From the NCBI GenBank assembly GCA_022571845.1, contig JACZXB010000001.1, forward strand, positions 124,001 to 188,000: a stretch of 64,000 nucleotides of DNA, read 5' to 3'. The stretch comes from Candidatus Zixiibacteriota bacterium. GTDB taxonomy: Bacteria > Zixibacteria > MSB-5A5 > GN15 > FEB-12. Numbering within the stretch: the stretch's first letter is position 1; every line of letters starts with the position of its first letter. Both the position numbers and the translations under genes were made by a program. This document shows positions 55,710 through 63,967 of this stretch, one piece after another. Below the pieces are notes generated by a model that saw only the letters and a program-made list of their open reading frames with translations, searched no databases and was not told where the DNA came from.

Positions 55710-57374
55710 ATGAAGTTCTATATTAAACCGGCAATCGTTTTAATCTTATTGTCTTCTTTGATCTCGCTTTCTGCACAGGCAGACGACAAGGACAGCGAAT
55801 TCTATAATTTTATCCAATCTCAATTTAAGAATCTGCCCGGCAGTTCTCTGGGAACCAATTCATCATCTTCAGACAGCAACTTTGTTGTGGAAATTGGATT
55901 AATAGAAAACGTTGCACTGGGTACGATGGTTGATGTCCCGGTGACGCTTAATAATGCACTGTGGGATTTGGGTGGAATTGCGTTAACGTTTAGTTTTGAC
56001 CGTTCTGTACTAGCCATCAATACTGTCATCCCGGGCCCTGATTTCTTTGATGCAGAGAGTGGATGTGGTTGGGAGTATTTTAGCTGGAGATATTTTCTTG
56101 ATACCTCGATTTGCGATTCATCGCTTTGCCCTATTGGGGGAATAAGGATCTATGGTGTCGCGGATGTAAACTCGCTTCCTGGACATCCGAATTGTCTAAA
56201 CCCTGAAACACCTGCTGAGTTTCTGTCTCTGAGATTTCTGGTTACAAATGATTATACCTTTAAGTGTAGCTTGATTCCAATTCGATTCGTGTGGTACAAA
56301 TGTGTTGATAATTCATTTGCTTATTATTCATACATTGGCGGCTGGGGACCTCACCTAACTTTGGGACTGAGCAACAATGTCTATACCGGAGAGATTCTAA
56401 TTCCACGCTCGGATACTTTCCCCTCGTATGGAGGAGTCATAGAATCATGCACAAACGGACTTGAACACGAAGCATTTAGAACAGTAATCGATTTCCATAA
56501 CGGCGGCGTATTCATCGAATGCGACGATACCGAACTGCTTTTTGGTGACATCAATTTGGATGGAGTTTTTAATATTTCGGATCTCTCTCTATTCGTAGAA
56601 TATTTCAGAAAAGATGAATCCGTTTTTGAGATTGACCTAAGTAAACAGATAGCCGCCACAGATATTAATAAAGACGGCGAAACTTTAAAACTCGAGGACT
56701 TGTTCCAACTCTCGAGTATTATATTCCAAGCAATGGACCCCGACTCGACATTTGACTCAACTCTGGAAGGAAGCCTAATTCTAAACAACAAGGCCGACAG
56801 GAAGGTCAGATTACAAACAGACTATAATTCTAACGCAATATGGATTAAAATGAGCGGTGATATTGAGCCGTATCATCCAATCGACAGCTCTCTTAAGGGG
56901 CATTTCTACGACGGAAGTCACACCAGAATTCTTCTTGGCAAGTTTCAAGGCTTTGGTCTGGGAACAATCGACCTGTTCTACTATACCGGCGAAGGAGAGA
57001 TAGTTGAAGCTCAAGCTGCTACTATTGAAGGTGTAGAGATAGCTTTGCAGATAGACGATGTTATAACATCTATCGAAGAACCGGACGATATTCTGCCTTC
57101 TGCTTTTGCACTCCACCAAAACTATCCCAACCCGTTTAATATTGAGACTGTCATAGAATTTGACTTGCCCAGAGCCTCGGAAGTAGAATTCGAAATTATT
57201 AATATATTGGGTCAGTTAGTTTACAATGTTACCAATCGTTACTCCGCCGGCTCTCATATTATTTACTGGGACGGCAGCTCGAATTCGGGCCAGACAGTTG
57301 GCAGCGGTGTTTATTATTACAGAATAACGGCCGGAGATTTTGTCTCGTCGAAGAAGATGATATTGCTGAAATAG
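55710..57374 (+). CDS. Secreted protein with cohesin-like, dockerin-like and C-terminal sorting domains
   Basis: A signal peptide (about 5-24) is followed by a cohesin-like beta domain (LGTMVDVPVTLNNALWDLGG, about 62-200), a dockerin-like pair of calcium loops (FGDINLDGVFNISDLSLFVE and ATDINKDGETLKLEDL, about 273-335), and a C-terminal FlgD-Ig / type 9-like sorting domain (ALHQNYPNPFNIETVIEFD..., ending SSKKMILLK). The architecture suggests export and cell-surface attachment or assembly. I use ATG 55710, which has AGAGGT 6 bases upstream; the in-frame TTG at 55686 adds only 8 residues. Confidence 0.8.
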   Translation: MKFYIKPAIVLILLSSLISLSAQADDKDSEFYNFIQSQFKNLPGSSLGTNSSSSDSNFVVEIGLIENVALGTMVDVPVTLNNALWDLGGIALTFSFDRSVLAINTVIPGPDFFDAESGCGWEYFSWRYFLDTSICDSSLCPIGGIRIYGVADVNSLPGHPNCLNPETPAEFLSLRFLVTNDYTFKCSLIPIRFVWYKCVDNSFAYYSYIGGWGPHLTLGLSNNVYTGEILIPRSDTFPSYGGVIESCTNGLEHEAFRTVIDFHNGGVFIECDDTELLFGDINLDGVFNISDLSLFVEYFRKDESVFEIDLSKQIAATDINKDGETLKLEDLFQLSSIIFQAMDPDSTFDSTLEGSLILNNKADRKVRLQTDYNSNAIWIKMSGDIEPYHPIDSSLKGHFYDGSHTRILLGKFQGFGLGTIDLFYYTGEGEIVEAQAATIEGVEIALQIDDVITSIEEPDDILPSAFALHQNYPNPFNIETVIEFDLPRASEVEFEIINILGQLVYNVTNRYSAGSHIIYWDGSSNSGQTVGSGVYYYRITAGDFVSSKKMILLK

Positions 57375-57445: not shown

Positions 57446-58807
57446 ATGAGCTTTTTAGATAAACTGACAGAACTGCTGCCCCAAGATCAAATCTCAACTC
57501 ACCCTGACCAGTTGAGAGTAGCCTCGATTGACGAGTCTACCCTGTCCCCGGTGACGCCTGTGGCTGTTGTCTGGGCTTTGAGCACAGACGATATCAGCAA
57601 GGTCGTAAAGCTCTGCGTCGAGCATAAAGTGCCCATTACCTCGCGAGGTGGCGGCAGCGCCCTGGAGGGCTCTACAATCCCAACTGAGCAAAGTATAGTA
57701 CTTGATTTATCTCGCATGACCAAGATTATGAACTACTGGCCGGAGGATTTGCAAGTATGTGTTCAGCCAGGGCTTATCTATGATGACTTAAATAATAAAT
57801 TGAAGTCAGGCGGCCTCTTCTTTCCGCCCTCCCCCGGTGGCTCAGGAAATCTGGCCAGCATCGGCGGCATGGTCTCTACCAACGCCAGCGGTATTTTCTC
57901 GGTCAAATATGGCGGCACTAAAGATTACGTTTTAGAGCTTGAAGTTATCACAGGAACAGGAGAAATTCTCAAACTCGGCAGCCGGGCAAGCAAGCGCTCC
58001 AGCGGCTATAATCTTGTAGATTTAATAGCGGGCTCAGAGGGAACGCTTGGCGTTATCTCAGCTATTACCTTGAGGTTAGCCGGACTACCTGAACATAAAC
58101 TTCAGGCTGCTTTCAAATTCCAGCATGAAATCAGTGCTGCCAAAGCAGTCTCAGAAATGTGCCGCTACGGAGTGGATTTGGCTGCAGTAGAATTCCTTGA
58201 TGGCCAAGTAATGGCAGCTCTCAATCAGCTAAAAAGTTACGGATTAGAGGAAGTCCCTTCGTTGTTTTTGGAATTCCATGGCTCCCAAAGTTCAAACCAG
58301 TCGAATTTTGAAACTGCCCAGGCAATCTGCCAGGAGCAAAAAGGCACAAAGTTAGAGTTGTCATCGAGTCAATCCCCCTGGGAGGTCAGGCATTTTGTAA
58401 CCGAATCTATCAAGCACCTAAAACCCGGGTTATCGATAATACGTAACGATGTAGCTTTCCCTATCTCCTGCCTGCCTGAAATGGTTCAGTTCTGCCACGC
58501 CGAAGCTGACAAGATCGGAATTTTGATGCATACTTTTGGGCATGTCGGTATGGGGCTGTTGCATGCCCTGATGCTGGCAGACGAAAACAATCAGAGCCAA
58601 TGGAGCAAAGCCAAAGAGCTAAACGATTTAATTATCAAAAAAGCCGTAGAATTAGGTGGCTCGATTTCCGGAGAACACGGCATAGGACTTGCACATAAAC
58701 ATCTTTTTGGACTTGAGCATGGGGGCTCAGTCGACTTAATGAGAAAAATAAAGAAGCAGTTTGACCCCCATAATATTCTCAACCCGGGCAAAATATTTGA
58801 CCTTTAG
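57446..58807 (+). CDS. glcD: FAD-linked oxidase, glycolate oxidase subunit GlcD / D-lactate dehydrogenase type
   Basis: Oxidises a 2-hydroxy acid (glycolate, D-lactate or similar) with FAD. The FAD_binding_4 domain has VPITSRGGGSALEGST (about 54-69), VQPGLIYDDLN and SIGGMVSTNASG, and NLVDLIAGSEGTLGVISA. The FAD-oxidase C-domain ends with GGSISGEHGIG...FDPHNILNPGKIF, the usual terminus. 453 aa. No GlcE/GlcF or iron-sulfur partner is in the window, so electron acceptor and exact substrate are open. Confidence 0.9.
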   Translation: MSFLDKLTELLPQDQISTHPDQLRVASIDESTLSPVTPVAVVWALSTDDISKVVKLCVEHKVPITSRGGGSALEGSTIPTEQSIVLDLSRMTKIMNYWPEDLQVCVQPGLIYDDLNNKLKSGGLFFPPSPGGSGNLASIGGMVSTNASGIFSVKYGGTKDYVLELEVITGTGEILKLGSRASKRSSGYNLVDLIAGSEGTLGVISAITLRLAGLPEHKLQAAFKFQHEISAAKAVSEMCRYGVDLAAVEFLDGQVMAALNQLKSYGLEEVPSLFLEFHGSQSSNQSNFETAQAICQEQKGTKLELSSSQSPWEVRHFVTESIKHLKPGLSIIRNDVAFPISCLPEMVQFCHAEADKIGILMHTFGHVGMGLLHALMLADENNQSQWSKAKELNDLIIKKAVELGGSISGEHGIGLAHKHLFGLEHGGSVDLMRKIKKQFDPHNILNPGKIFDL

Positions 58808-58908: not shown

Positions 58909-59616
58909 ATGAGAAGATTTCTTTTACCTATTATAGTTGCGATTTCGGTTTTGTGCCCTAACGCTTTTTCACAGCCGAAATTGGAGAGCAGCAGTCAAAA
59001 ATTCGATTTCGGGCTGACAACTCAAAACTCAATTATCGTTCATAGCTTTTGGCTAAAATCGACCGGAACAGATACAGTCCAAATCTCAGATATCAAAACC
59101 GGCTGCAGCTGTGCCATCAGCTTGCTTGAATCCGATAAAATTGCTCCGGGTGATTCTACCCGGCTGACAATTTCCTGGAATACCGAACAGGCGACGGGCC
59201 CTATAAATAGATTCCCCAAAATCTACAGTAATGGCTCAGAAAAACCTTTGAGCATATCACTTAAAGCAAACGTCCTGCTATCTCTTGATTCTGCATTTGC
59301 AGGAAGCATCTGGCCGTTTAAATTTGAAATGAGCCGAATCCGCGAGATGTCGATTGATAGTCTCGAGTTTAGAATTATCAATGCTACCGACCAAGTCTTC
59401 TATCCGGAAATTGTATCAGAACTACCTGCCGAATGTATTATCTTCCTGCCGCAAACTGTACCCGCCAAGGGTTCAGCTTATGGCTACGCTAAGCTATTGC
59501 CCGAATTCGTTGACAAAGAGTTCAAAAGCTCATTTACAGTAGATTTTAAGTACGGAAAAGGAAATTATCTGACTATCCCTATTCGCCGGAAATTCTATGG
59601 GAGCAAATCTGATTAG
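58909..59616 (+). CDS. Exported DUF1573 protein, first of three
   Basis: Signal peptide (about 3-22) followed by a DUF1573 immunoglobulin-like domain. FDFGLTTQNSIIVHSFWLKS is the strand pair before the conserved cysteine motif G-C-S-C (about 64-67). The second half (after about 120) is a further beta domain conserved among the three tandem copies. Function of DUF1573 is unknown; the CxC motif suggests redox or metal chemistry outside the cytoplasm. 2 bases separate it from the next copy. Confidence 0.82.
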   Translation: MRRFLLPIIVAISVLCPNAFSQPKLESSSQKFDFGLTTQNSIIVHSFWLKSTGTDTVQISDIKTGCSCAISLLESDKIAPGDSTRLTISWNTEQATGPINRFPKIYSNGSEKPLSISLKANVLLSLDSAFAGSIWPFKFEMSRIREMSIDSLEFRIINATDQVFYPEIVSELPAECIIFLPQTVPAKGSAYGYAKLLPEFVDKEFKSSFTVDFKYGKGNYLTIPIRRKFYGSKSD

Positions 59617-59618
59617 CA

Positions 59619-60368
59619 TTGTATAATTATGTGACTGGAGAAGAGAAAATCAGCTTAAAAAAATTATACGAAATATCGGTCTTAGCGGTTTTAATTATTA
59701 GCATATCGGCCACAGATGCCTGGCCGTCGCCAAGGTTGACCCTTCCGGAAACAGTCTTCAACTTTGGCTATGTACCTCAACATTCGCTGGTATCTCACAG
59801 ATTCTGGCTGCTATCTACGGGCGAAGATACTCTCAGAATTGAGCGGATAATCCCCGGCTGCAGCTGTACCAGAGCGCCGCTGAAAAAAAATAAGCTGGCC
59901 TCCGGCGACAGCACCGTAGTGGAAATCATATTCAGCACTAAAAGCTTCAGAAACAGGATTGAGAAAAGTCCAAAAATCCAGACCAACGAGAATACGCCCA
60001 ATAAAAGCCTCAAAATCATCGCTAATGTCTTGGCAAAAACCGACTCTACTTTCCCGGTTATCATAGAGCCATTTAAGATATCTCTACCGAAAAGCGAAAC
60101 CGAGCAGATAAATAAAAGGCAGTTTTCTATCAAGAACGTTTCAAAGGAAGATTTAAAGCTTGAGCTTATATCCGTGCCCGACGGCTACTTTGAAATCGAT
60201 CTGCCAGTCGAGATCAAGGCGGGTGAAACCAAAACAGGAGAGGTCCGGCTCTTGAAAGACTCGATAGAAAAGTCCTTTCAAAAGTCCTTTACAATCAGGT
60301 TCAACGATGATTTTGGCAGCCGTTTTACAATCCCGGTTAAAAGGACTATTGATTATACTGGTAATTAG
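59619..60368 (+). CDS. Exported DUF1573 protein, second of three
   Basis: Paralogue of its neighbours: FNFGYVPQHSLVSHRFWLLS, then IIPGCSCTRAPLKKN with the CxC motif, and PKIQTNENTPNKSLKI. A signal-peptide-like hydrophobic stretch (SVLAVLIISISATDAW) is present, but the start is unclear. TTG 59619 or GTG 59631 both leave about 15 extra residues before it. The best Shine-Dalgarno (GGAGAAGAG near 59637) is followed by no standard start codon. Confidence 0.78.
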   Translation: MYNYVTGEEKISLKKLYEISVLAVLIISISATDAWPSPRLTLPETVFNFGYVPQHSLVSHRFWLLSTGEDTLRIERIIPGCSCTRAPLKKNKLASGDSTVVEIIFSTKSFRNRIEKSPKIQTNENTPNKSLKIIANVLAKTDSTFPVIIEPFKISLPKSETEQINKRQFSIKNVSKEDLKLELISVPDGYFEIDLPVEIKAGETKTGEVRLLKDSIEKSFQKSFTIRFNDDFGSRFTIPVKRTIDYTGN

Positions 60369-60434: not shown

Positions 60435-61169
60435 ATGAATAATATTAGAACAATTGTTTTGATTGCAGTTTTGACACTGCTGCTTGCATCTGTTGCAACA
60501 GCTGCACCCAGGCTGACTATTCCCGTCAAAGAGTTCAATTTTGGCTATGTCCCTCAGAATTCTACTATCAGCCACAAATTCTGGCTGGTTTCAACGGGTG
60601 ATGATACTCTCAAGATTCTTAAAGTAATCCCCGGCTGAGGCTGCACCAAGGCTCCTTTGCTAAAGGACGTACTTGCTGTCGGTGACAGCACAGAATTAGA
60701 GATTATTTTCAGTTCAAAGAAATACCGGACCAAAATAACTAAGCGTCCTAAAATTCAGACTAACGAAGGACCTCCGGACAAATTCGTATCAATTACAGTA
60801 AATGTAGTTACCCGGCCTGATTCTACCTACCCGCTAATAATGAGACCCTACAAAATTGACCTGTCTCAATTAGGTTCAAAGGTTATTGATAAAATGAGTT
60901 TTGAGATTAGAAACGTCTCCGATGAGGACCTGAAGATAAAACTGATTGCCTACGCCAGTGAATATTTTGAAGTGGATCTTCCCAAAAGCATCAAAGCCGG
61001 CGAGACAAGAAAAGCCAAGGTAAAGCTGCGTAAAGAAGTACTGAAAAAATCTTTTGACAAATCGTTTACTATAGAGTTAAGCGACGAAGTTCAGAGCAGA
61101 TTTACCATTCCCGTCAAGAGAAAACTGGCGACGACGGTCAGGGCATCTTCAAAGCCACCGGGCAAATAA
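60435..61169 (+). CDS. DUF1573 protein with in-frame TGA at the conserved Cys: candidate selenoprotein
   Basis: Third tandem DUF1573 copy. Signal peptide (MNNIRTIVLIAVLTLLLASV...), then FNFGYVPQNSTISHKFWLVS and KVIPG-TGA-GCTKAPLLK. Copies 1 and 2 have G-C-S-C at this point, and the wider family has C-G-C-T. Reading TGA (60636-60638, residue 68) as selenocysteine gives U-G-C-T, the canonical motif with the first Cys replaced. The frame then stays open for 177 codons and matches copy 2 closely (LEIIFSSKKYRTKITKRPKI versus VEIIFSTKSFRNRIEKSPKI). A SECIS-like hairpin follows. ATG 60435 is preferred because GGAG is 8 bases upstream; ATG 60429 is only 2 bases from it. If the TGA is a true stop, this is a pseudogene or a 67-residue product. 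Confidence 0.6.
60647..60675 (+). promoter_or_regulatory. Bacterial SECIS-like hairpin after the in-frame TGA
   Basis: TCCTTT (60653-60658) and AAAGGA (60662-60667) form a perfect 6-pair stem with a 3-base loop GCT. A lower stem CAAG (60647-60650) / CTTG (60672-60675) flanks a small internal loop. The loop begins with G and lies 20 bases past the TGA. This fits the accepted bacterial SECIS model: short apical loop with G in its first two positions, 16-37 bases from UGA. The matching stretch in the second DUF1573 gene has no such hairpin. Confidence 0.5.
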
Positions 61170-61174
61170 ATTTT

Positions 61175-62584
61175 CTAATCAAAATCAAATAGACCCTGCT
61201 TAATTCTATTTTCCCAGGCAGGGTCATATCTTTCACCGCTTACATTTGAATGTACCAGATTGTATTCTTTGTCCCCTCTTTTATCCTGAAAGACAAATAG
61301 TTTGCCGTTTAAGCGATGATAGTGCCATATCTGGAATGGCTCATAGTTGCCCAAAGATTGGTGGTCATCAAGTTCATCCCATTATCCGAATTGCATATAG
61401 ACTCTGCCGCGGTCTGTTTTCCAGCCGGAGTTCGGCAGCCCGGGCAGAGAATACCTCTCATTTACAAATATGTAACGGCTTAAGATCTCTGCTTGCGATT
61501 CCAGTTCAGAGTCTGACTCTTGAGACTTACGTTCAACCCAGAATTGACGCAGAAACTCCTCTTTACCCCGGTCTGTCAGCTGTTGCAATGTTGACCGCTG
61601 TTTTCTGCTAAGCTCATAAGTGACGAGATTGACTCTATCTGTAATTGATAGTGTATCAAATTGTTCACTTCTAAAGCTTTTCTTTAGAGCAAACCGGACT
61701 TCTTCCGTTGAAATAATGCGCATCAAGAAATTCGCAGAATCAATCTGATTTGAATCACTGATATTCAGGCTGAATTCATAAAGCCCGGTCGGCCATGATT
61801 TGATTTTTACAGCTTCTACAATCACTGCAGTCTGGCCGGAGTTGGTGCGTCTTTCGGATTGTATCAAATTGGTCACATCCCCAAACTTATCTTTGACATT
61901 CAAAGACAATTGAAAGGCGCTGTTTTCAAAATACATCAAGTTGTAGATTTCAGTATAGAGAAATATCAGAGTGTCTCTGTTGCTGAAGATTGATAAAGGA
62001 TTCGGCAGCAGATAGTAGCCGCTTTTAATCAGCCTGGTATTAATTTTTGAACTGTCGAAATGCTGTGTAGCAGCATAGGCCCAGTAATGCCCACCGATAT
62101 CAAGACTCCTGCCCGGAGGTTCCACTATTATTTTATCCAGGAAATAGCTACCCTTGCGCCCTGATGAACCATCAACAATGGTTACTCTCGCCGAATAAAC
62201 ACCCGTCTTGACCGCCAGAGATAGTTTGTCAAAAACTTTGATATCATCGGCTTAGGCGTCAACGCTGTCCCTGGCGCTAACGATGAAAAAAGTATTAGCA
62301 GAGTCAACTGTAAAACCCTCTGTTCCGATAAGATCAACCTGAGCTAAAACCACCGCGTAAATATTTGAATCTTCATTTGTCTTACTTGGCAAAAATCCGA
62401 GTTGATTGCGGCTGATTGAAAAAAGAAATTCTACAATCGCAACTGAATCATAGGCAGGATTATTAAATACAGCCGCCCCGGCTGAAACGGTTAAACCGGC
62501 CTTGTCAGAAACTGACTGCCCGCTCGCATAGACCGTACTTGAAACCAGGACAACTATCAGAAATATTAATACGGATTTGCTCAC
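61175..62584 (-). pseudogene. GWxTD-domain exported protein interrupted by two in-frame TAA codons
   Basis: A single minus-strand frame of 470 codons begins at GTG 62584 with a signal peptide (KSVLIFLIVVLVSSTVYA) and ends at TAG 61175-61177, broken by TAA at 62252-62254 and at 61382-61384 but with no frameshift. Between the stops is the beta-rich middle, and just before the second TAA is the family motif GWKTDRGRVYMQFG. After that TAA the frame continues WDELDDHQ...FQIWHYHRLNGKLFVFQDK, which aligns with IWHYY/FIFIDD of the intact neighbour at 62618. GWxTD proteins are exported proteins of unknown role in FCB bacteria. Most simply a recent pseudogene. Confidence 0.75.
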
Positions 62585-62617: not shown

Positions 62618-63967
62618 TCAATAATCAGGGCTGCTTCCTATCCCGTCATAAGGAAATTGCAGGCGGTAGTCGCCGTCGTGGCTGTCATCGATGAAGATAA
62701 ACTTTCGGTACCTTCCTTTTCGATAATAATGCCAGACCTGTGAAGGATAAGTCTCCAGCGCAAAGGGGTAATCTTCAATCTGATCCGGAATTCCATATCT
62801 TATGAGAACTCGTCCCCGGTCTGTTTCCCAGCCCAGCCGTCTCAGGAAACCGTAATTGGCATTAGCCATTCTGACCCTGCGATAGAATTCAGCTCTAAAT
62901 TCATTTCTTGGAGTTTCAGGGAACGGGTCCTTTAATTTCCAAAAACTATCCAAGGCTGCCTTTTTCTCTTGGAGGGTTTTGGCCTTTTTTAGTTCTTTCA
63001 CATCCTTGGGTGATGCGATAAGAGATATCTGACTGACTAAGATATCATAATTATGCTGAAGAAGCGATTCCTCGTCCCATCTAATATAGAATTTACCCTT
63101 TTTCTTATCGTACTTCTTGCCCCGGGCTCCTTTAAGCTCGATTTCAATTTCATACTCTCCCGGCTCAAAGCCGGCCACGGAAATCTCTCTTATCTGCCTC
63201 GTAAAAGGCTTCTCCAACATAGAGGTAAGTGTATCCCGGTAGACCATTTTCCCTTTTCTTTTTCTTATCAGCGTCTGCACCGTAGCCTTAGCCTGACCCT
63301 TGGAACCCGGATAAATTTCGAGATAATAAAGAAGTTTGTTATCTTTGTCTTCTCCGCCCCCGTAATAATGCGATACTGAGGGTATTACTACCTTGTCCCC
63401 TTTGGCGAACAAATCCGAATTATCCTGGAGTGGCCCTACTGCCTGAGCAAACAGGATATTGGAAAGTTTTGGGGTTCCCTTGTTAACATTTTCAAGTTTT
63501 GCCTGAAATTCCTTTGTCTTAATGTTGTTTTTCTTGGCGTGGTGGTCATTAAGAGCAAACCGGACATCGTACTTGCCGGGGTCCAGTATGAAGTTAATTT
63601 GGCTGGTACGGTAACTGGTGCTGGAGAGGGCCTCCCGTTTATCAGCGACTGTAATAGTTTTTTCTCTCTTTTCCTCTGTAAGACGGCGGCCGCGCTTGTC
63701 CATTATTGTTATTTTTATGTCATATGAAGCTTGAAAAAGATCTCCTTCTTCTTTAAAAGCCAGGGCACTATTATGGATCTGATAATAGACTTCCAGACGC
63801 ATCTGCCTGGAGTCTTCAATCGCAAACGCCGCATAATCCACTTTGGCTTCGCGCTGGTTTCTATCCAGAAATAATGACCCGTAATCCCCCTGGGCCAAGA
63901 CAGGGGAAAACAGAACTATGGCAGTTAGCAGAGCCAGTGGTAAAAATCTGTGTTTCTTGAAAAACAT
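62618..63967 (-). CDS. GWxTD-domain exported protein
   Basis: A signal peptide (about 7-26, ending VLAQG) is followed by a beta-sandwich-like region with repeated strands (about 35-310), a helical segment (about 320-370) and the C-terminal GWxTD domain: LGWETDRGRVLIRYGIP (near 377-393), then QVWHYYRKGRYRKFIFIDD. 449 aa. It lies upstream (minus strand) of its broken paralogue, 33 bases apart, so they formed a tandem pair. Function unknown; the FCB distribution suggests an envelope role. The remaining 33 bases to the window end show no further feature. Confidence 0.85.
   Translation of the reverse strand: MFFKKHRFLPLALLTAIVLFSPVLAQGDYGSLFLDRNQREAKVDYAAFAIEDSRQMRLEVYYQIHNSALAFKEEGDLFQASYDIKITIMDKRGRRLTEEKREKTITVADKREALSSTSYRTSQINFILDPGKYDVRFALNDHHAKKNNIKTKEFQAKLENVNKGTPKLSNILFAQAVGPLQDNSDLFAKGDKVVIPSVSHYYGGGEDKDNKLLYYLEIYPGSKGQAKATVQTLIRKRKGKMVYRDTLTSMLEKPFTRQIREISVAGFEPGEYEIEIELKGARGKKYDKKKGKFYIRWDEESLLQHNYDILVSQISLIASPKDVKELKKAKTLQEKKAALDSFWKLKDPFPETPRNEFRAEFYRRVRMANANYGFLRRLGWETDRGRVLIRYGIPDQIEDYPFALETYPSQVWHYYRKGRYRKFIFIDDSHDGDYRLQFPYDGIGSSPDY

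Follow-up and report, generated by a model that had tools for sequence, protein, structure and literature searches.

Does the TGA triplet within the last of three tandem DUF1573 genes of a Candidatus Zixiibacteriota genome terminate that gene, or does it specify selenocysteine (Sec)? The gene (60435–61169, + strand) lies in a stretch of 64,000 nucleotides (nt) of contig JACZXB010000001.1 (assembly GCA_022571845.1, positions 124,001 to 188,000), which is referred to here as the window and to which all coordinates below refer. Comparisons with the relatives of the source genome make it very probable that 60435–61169 is a selenoprotein gene with a two-hairpin insertion signal. In the mechanism proposed here, the SelA/SelB/SelC/SelD system of the genome would decode the UGA at residue 68 as Sec, as directed by a two-hairpin Sec insertion sequence (SECIS) directly after the UGA, which would consist of a variable proximal hairpin followed by a distal one whose apical loop is GG(N). 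SelB would bind the distal GG loop, the proximal hairpin would shorten the gap to the UGA, and the decoding would place a Sec-Gly-Cys pair in a loop within the first Ig-like domain of an exported protein.

The open reading frame starts with the ATG at 60435 and ends with the TAA at 61167–61169. It is open only when the in-frame TGA (60636–60638, + strand) is read as a residue, which gives a protein of 244 residues in which the putative Sec is residue 68 and 176 sense codons follow the TGA. Each of the three tandem genes matches Pfam DUF1573 (E 1e-17 to 1e-22), with 80.1 bits (E 1.3e-22) for the match of 60435–61169 to PF07610, whose gathering score is 26.1. An earlier note, made from the letters of this DNA alone, had described the tandem arrangement, the frame that stays open past the TGA and the replacement by TGA of the first Cys of a conserved motif, and all of these were confirmed: the motif is KVIPG-U-GCTKAP (PGUGCT) in this gene and IIPG-C-SCTRAP in the neighboring gene 59619–60368. 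Its selenoprotein reading is now strongly supported by the Sec machinery, the recurrent TGA, the hairpins and the coding constraint. Those of its proposed checks that were run all gave matching results: selA, selB, selC and selD are all present in the genome, TGA repeatedly aligns with Cys in relatives, the hairpins are kept in the Sec copies and are missing from nearly all Cys copies, and the codons past the TGA show little nonsynonymous change, not an elevated rate.

A TGA at this codon, which in every case takes the place of the leading Cys in PG-C-GC-T, was found in at least 107 of the 132 Candidatus Zixiibacteriota genomes. Of the 132, 95 have the exact pattern TGAGGNTGY-N30-SCTGYCGGYGACAGY and none has a reversed control pattern, while at least 12 further genomes contain a TGA gene whose distal sequence is outside the exact pattern. 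In a pattern scan of all genomes, no genuine match to the exact motif occurred outside Zixiibacteriota among the matches listed; those from other taxa, again among the matches listed, had family-profile scores of at most ~15 bits and were rejected as chance. The TGA is present in 60 distinct copies from the source genome and its relatives and in 13 genes of deeper families. The orthologues of two congeners are 89–91% identical to the window gene, both with the TGA, and a near-identical gene with the same TGA was found in a separately titled assembly, MAG B77T1B8. Because every in-frame TGA inside the conserved coding region of the relatives is this very codon, and because the next 150 codons contain no further stop in 55 copies, the placement of the TGA is not a matter of chance.

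Purifying selection on the codons past the TGA is strong. The ratio of nonsynonymous to synonymous substitution rates (dN/dS) between the source genome and the two congeners is 0.06–0.08 downstream of the signal and 0.08–0.10 upstream. The synonymous rate (dS) in three genome comparisons was 0.075, 0.158, and 0.26 across the 19 signal codons, compared to 0.71, 0.72, and 0.42 downstream, and the synonymous sites across the signal are therefore constrained beyond the needs of the protein. Nothing beyond the stop itself speaks for a sequencing error or for a pseudogene in decay whose stop arose by chance. Both are ruled out by conservation, the TGA recurring in at least 107 of the 132 genomes with a low dN/dS past it, and their probability is negligible; an assembly error was rejected on the same ground.

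The source genome (2.75 Mb, 98.8% complete) contains selA (500 bits), selB directly beside it (331 bits), a tRNA-Sec gene (71 bits, gathering score 47) whose anticodon was given as TCA (UCA) by ARAGORN, and selD (389 bits). Given that selD itself contains one in-frame TGA, at the known Sec site in CAGUASK, the use of UGA for Sec in this genome does not rest on the DUF1573 gene. Decoding of the UGA as another amino acid, through code reassignment or Cys/Trp readthrough, would also agree with a frame that is open across the UGA. It is, however, very unlikely in a genome with a complete Sec system and a signal of Sec type, in which the only in-frame TGA among the Sec-machinery genes searched was that of selD, at its known Sec site. 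Code reassignment was also rejected on conservation.

Across the phylum, selA was above the cut-off in 116 of 132 genomes, and selD was found in 127 of the 129 genomes searched. Throughout the phylum, SelD is itself a selenoprotein (L010 and the SelD loci L261–L292). In most cases its insertion signal is a hairpin whose G-G/U-U triloop follows the UGA at 17, 20, or 33 nt, with compensating changes in the stem. One selA match (genome G085, C64:9741-11075) itself contained one in-frame TGA. For the alpha subunit of formate dehydrogenase, a common Sec protein, only a below-cut-off match with no in-frame TGA was found.

The earlier note had also reported a G-loop hairpin 20 bases downstream of the TGA. 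Such a hairpin, TCCTTT-GCT-AAAGGA (60653–60667), does exist, and its loop is exactly 20 nt after the UGA, but a second and far more constrained hairpin at 60675–60689 had been missed. The proximal hairpin region (60649–60674, + strand) includes a 6-bp stem (60653–60658/60662–60667) closed by the loop GCT. The distal hairpin (60675–60689, + strand), GCUGUC-GGU-GACAGC, has its loop 42 nt after the UGA and was recognized by folding z, pattern count and compensatory change. In the layout referred to here as type A, ~10 nt are followed by a proximal hairpin of variable sequence and then by GCUGUC-GGN-GACAGC, and the alignment of type-A copies contains no gaps after the UGA.

Selection acts on both hairpins in the Sec copies. 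When folding energies were compared with those of synonymous-codon shuffles in 60 Sec copies and 19 Cys copies, the mean folding z was −2.87 in the Sec copies vs. −0.19 in the Cys copies for the proximal region, and −3.16 vs. −0.21 for the distal region. Other windows of the gene mostly gave z of −0.6 to +0.3, with −1.2 for the offset-12 window, which overlaps the distal hairpin. One pair of the proximal stem covaries (UA 30, AU 11, GU 9, and GC 6), and in the distal stem a compensatory change from G-C to A-U (GCUAUC-GGY-GAUAGC) was found in four genes of a deeper family; the covariation exceeded that of all 500 shuffles. The Ala-Val codons GCT and GTC are retained in 57 and 58 of the 60 Sec copies, respectively, while the second codon of this site encodes mostly Pro, Ser or Ala in the Cys copies. 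As the GACAGC half is usual in the Cys copies as well, it is the matching 5′ half that sets the Sec copies apart. Both hairpins are missing from nearly all Cys paralogues.

RNAalifold, applied to 70 sequences, proposed another, weak pairing for the proximal region and detected no covariation; the probable reason is that this stem shifts its register between copies. Proximal covariation was instead scored by pair counting on the named structure. An Rfam scan of the region gave only chance matches of snoRNA type. In six Sec genes of two other families, type A is absent and the Val site is Pro, as in the Cys copies. These genes share an identical hairpin, UCCAC-GGUC-GUGGA (type B), whose loop is 53 nt from the UGA, and this hairpin was absent from the Cys paralogues inspected, including the one within locus L309. 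Because type B is also a proximal hairpin followed by a GG-loop hairpin, the same layout recurs with a different sequence. The GG loop is present in every copy that has a distal hairpin.

The published model of the bacterial SECIS is one hairpin with a 3–9 nt loop located 16–37 nt from the UGA, a G within the first two loop positions, an upper stem of 4–16 bp and an energy of −7.5 kcal/mol or lower (PMC13188914). Like this model, the signal described here is in the coding region directly after the UGA and has a small GG-initial loop on a 6–7 bp stem, and the GGU loop and stem of the distal hairpin agree with the loop and stem criteria; it differs from the model in having two adjacent conserved hairpins and a GG loop 42 or 53 nt from the UGA. 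The proximal loop of the source genome, at 20 nt, is within the published range. The free energy is −8.4 kcal/mol for the distal hairpin (7 bp), −5.1 kcal/mol for the source proximal hairpin alone and −18.1 kcal/mol for the whole 57 nt. The SelD genes of the phylum use UGA decoding in the same genomes and mostly share the loop type of the distal hairpin, the G-G/U-U triloop, but in the genes inspected they have a single hairpin at the distances given above.

We consider it likely that SelB binds the distal GG loop while the proximal hairpin folds the spacer away, which makes the distal hairpin the predicted SelB site. With the proximal hairpin folded away, the distal stem would start at an effective 10 nt from the UGA, which is near the comparable UGA-to-stem spacing of 11 nt in E. 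coli (PMC8659212). A tentative alternative, to which we assign the smaller probability, is that the SECIS consists only of the proximal hairpin, which is at the canonical distance, and that the distal hairpin has an accessory role as an enhancer or a pause element. Consistent with this alternative, the proximal loop is 20–21 nt after the UGA in 54 of 72 copies, which is the commonest distance in the SelD genes of the phylum, the published model is matched by the proximal hairpin in 45 of 72 copies, its loop sequence being free, and in a second DUF1573 subfamily two Sec copies, L082 and L083, carry a proximal hairpin alone, a strong one with GGA/GGAC loops. What argues against it is the distal GG loop, which is constant wherever a distal hairpin exists, and the substitution of a GGUC-loop hairpin in another sub-clade. 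Whether the signal represents a distinct bacterial SECIS class, phylum-wide in one family, is an evenly balanced question. In such a class, SelB would act more than 40 nt from the UGA, at the distal GG-loop hairpin, while the proximal hairpin folds the spacer away, and the distal hairpin of one sub-clade would be unrelated to the others in sequence and position.

Several observations weigh against a selenoprotein gene that depends on two hairpins. The absence of the distal hairpin from L082 and L083 is one of them, and another is the distal loop of the window gene, which at 42 nt is outside the 16–37 nt of the published model. The proximal hairpin of the source genome, taken alone, is unremarkable relative to synonymous shuffles (z −1.0), and the Cys copies L033 and L055 retain the distal hairpin. 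A few genomes, most of them fragmented, have the Sec gene with no clear selA, and G127, which is rated 100% complete, contains the Sec gene and a Sec-selD but gave no selA match.

In a quick tree of 121 DUF1573 proteins, which was built with the Sec site masked and whose details are tentative, the Sec copies group in a single region, within which Cys copies are nested, and well supported branches force at least seven Sec/Cys changes. The adjacent Cys paralogue of the window (59619–60368, + strand; motif PGCSCT) is nested among the Sec copies, and so it is probably a duplicate that returned to Cys, i.e., a Sec-to-Cys descendant of the Sec clade. The outer Cys paralogue (58909–59616, + strand; motif KTGCSC) belongs to a separate, ancient Cys clade. 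L033, a Cys copy whose distal hairpin is intact in a genome with selA and a Sec-SelD, and the tandem pair L055 look like recent Sec-to-Cys losses, which is their likely origin, in genomes that have retained the Sec system. At locus L109 (1933, 2886, and 3872), three DUF1573 genes occur in tandem, every one with its own TGA and hairpins.

The product of the Sec gene looks like an exported protein, as predicted from the signal-peptide-like N-terminal segment MNNIRTIVLIAVLTLLLASVATA (60435–60503, + strand), which was recognized by eye and coincides with a helix at residues 2–18 in the AlphaFold2 model. In that model (mean pLDDT 93.9, pTM 0.84), this segment is followed by a first Ig-like domain of the ASH/HYDIN type (60522–60806, + strand), which corresponds to the Pfam DUF1573 match, and by a second Ig-like domain (60834–61124, + strand; strands 134–229), with PDB matches to tandem ASH/Ig domains. 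Sec68 and Cys70, the latter encoded at 60642–60644 (+ strand), are in the loop after strand 59–65 of the first domain, and both positions are invariant in 62 aligned proteins. The modelled domains share their fold with the HYDIN/ASH Ig-like domains of ciliary proteins, which differ in function and context; to our knowledge, a Sec/Cys pair is not a feature of the ciliary domains.

Whether the Sec-Gly-Cys pair performs thiol/selenol-disulfide exchange outside the cytoplasm is, in our view, about an even call. Such a role is plausible given that the disulfide potential of the CGC tripeptide is near that of protein disulfide isomerase, as stated in PMC4316792 (citing Woycechowsky and Raines). It is rather doubtful that the loop instead binds a metal or metalloid with no selenenylsulfide cycling. 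Although residues 68 and 70 are both invariant, and UxC is also listed for a Cu/Zn efflux transporter selenoprotein (PMC13188914), the strictly invariant columns contain no further Cys or His ligand, and predicted prokaryotic selenoproteins are mostly thought to be redox proteins, according to PMC9312934.

A GlcD-type FAD-linked oxidase gene (57446–58807, + strand) is directly upstream of the DUF1573 cluster, and such a gene also adjoins the cluster in six relatives (L103, L149, L164, L180, L190, and L194). Two GWxTD-domain genes (61385–62125 and 62618–63967, both − strand) are convergent with the selenoprotein gene, and one or both are near the Sec gene in 11 of 22 named loci. Further upstream, 55710–57371 (+ strand) encodes a secreted protein that has a C-terminal sorting domain in the style of type IX and whose dockerin-like match is weak.

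The earlier note knew of no established DUF1573 selenoprotein family. A predicted one is catalogued, however, as OS_HP2, with the motif UGC/UxC (NCBIfam NF041425, PMC9312934, PMC13188914, and PMC2398784). OS_HP2 was first predicted in an Olavius algarvensis symbiont and was seen in the Global Ocean Sampling (GOS) metagenomes, with two GOS sequences in 2008. The window protein shares with it the PF07610 domain and the U-G-C motif, and NF041425 is its best NCBIfam match (E 1.3e-19); it differs in scoring 70.4 bits, under the NF041425 cut-off of 100, in being a two-domain protein and in its origin from the phylum Zixiibacteriota. The Zixiibacteriota genes are new members or close relatives of OS_HP2, and by the NCBI threshold the window protein is a relative and not a member.

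What looks new here is the two-hairpin insertion signal, of which no description was found in a literature search of partial coverage, together with the demonstration of the family across the whole phylum. A thinly documented predicted family is thereby extended to more than 100 comparable genes with a clear Sec/Cys paralogue test set. The signal offers a way to test the distance and geometry over which SelB acts, and genes with such a signal could escape SECIS searches that are limited to 16–37 nt. As Sec and Cys paralogues are often adjacent in one genome, the reason for keeping Sec is directly testable in these bacteria.
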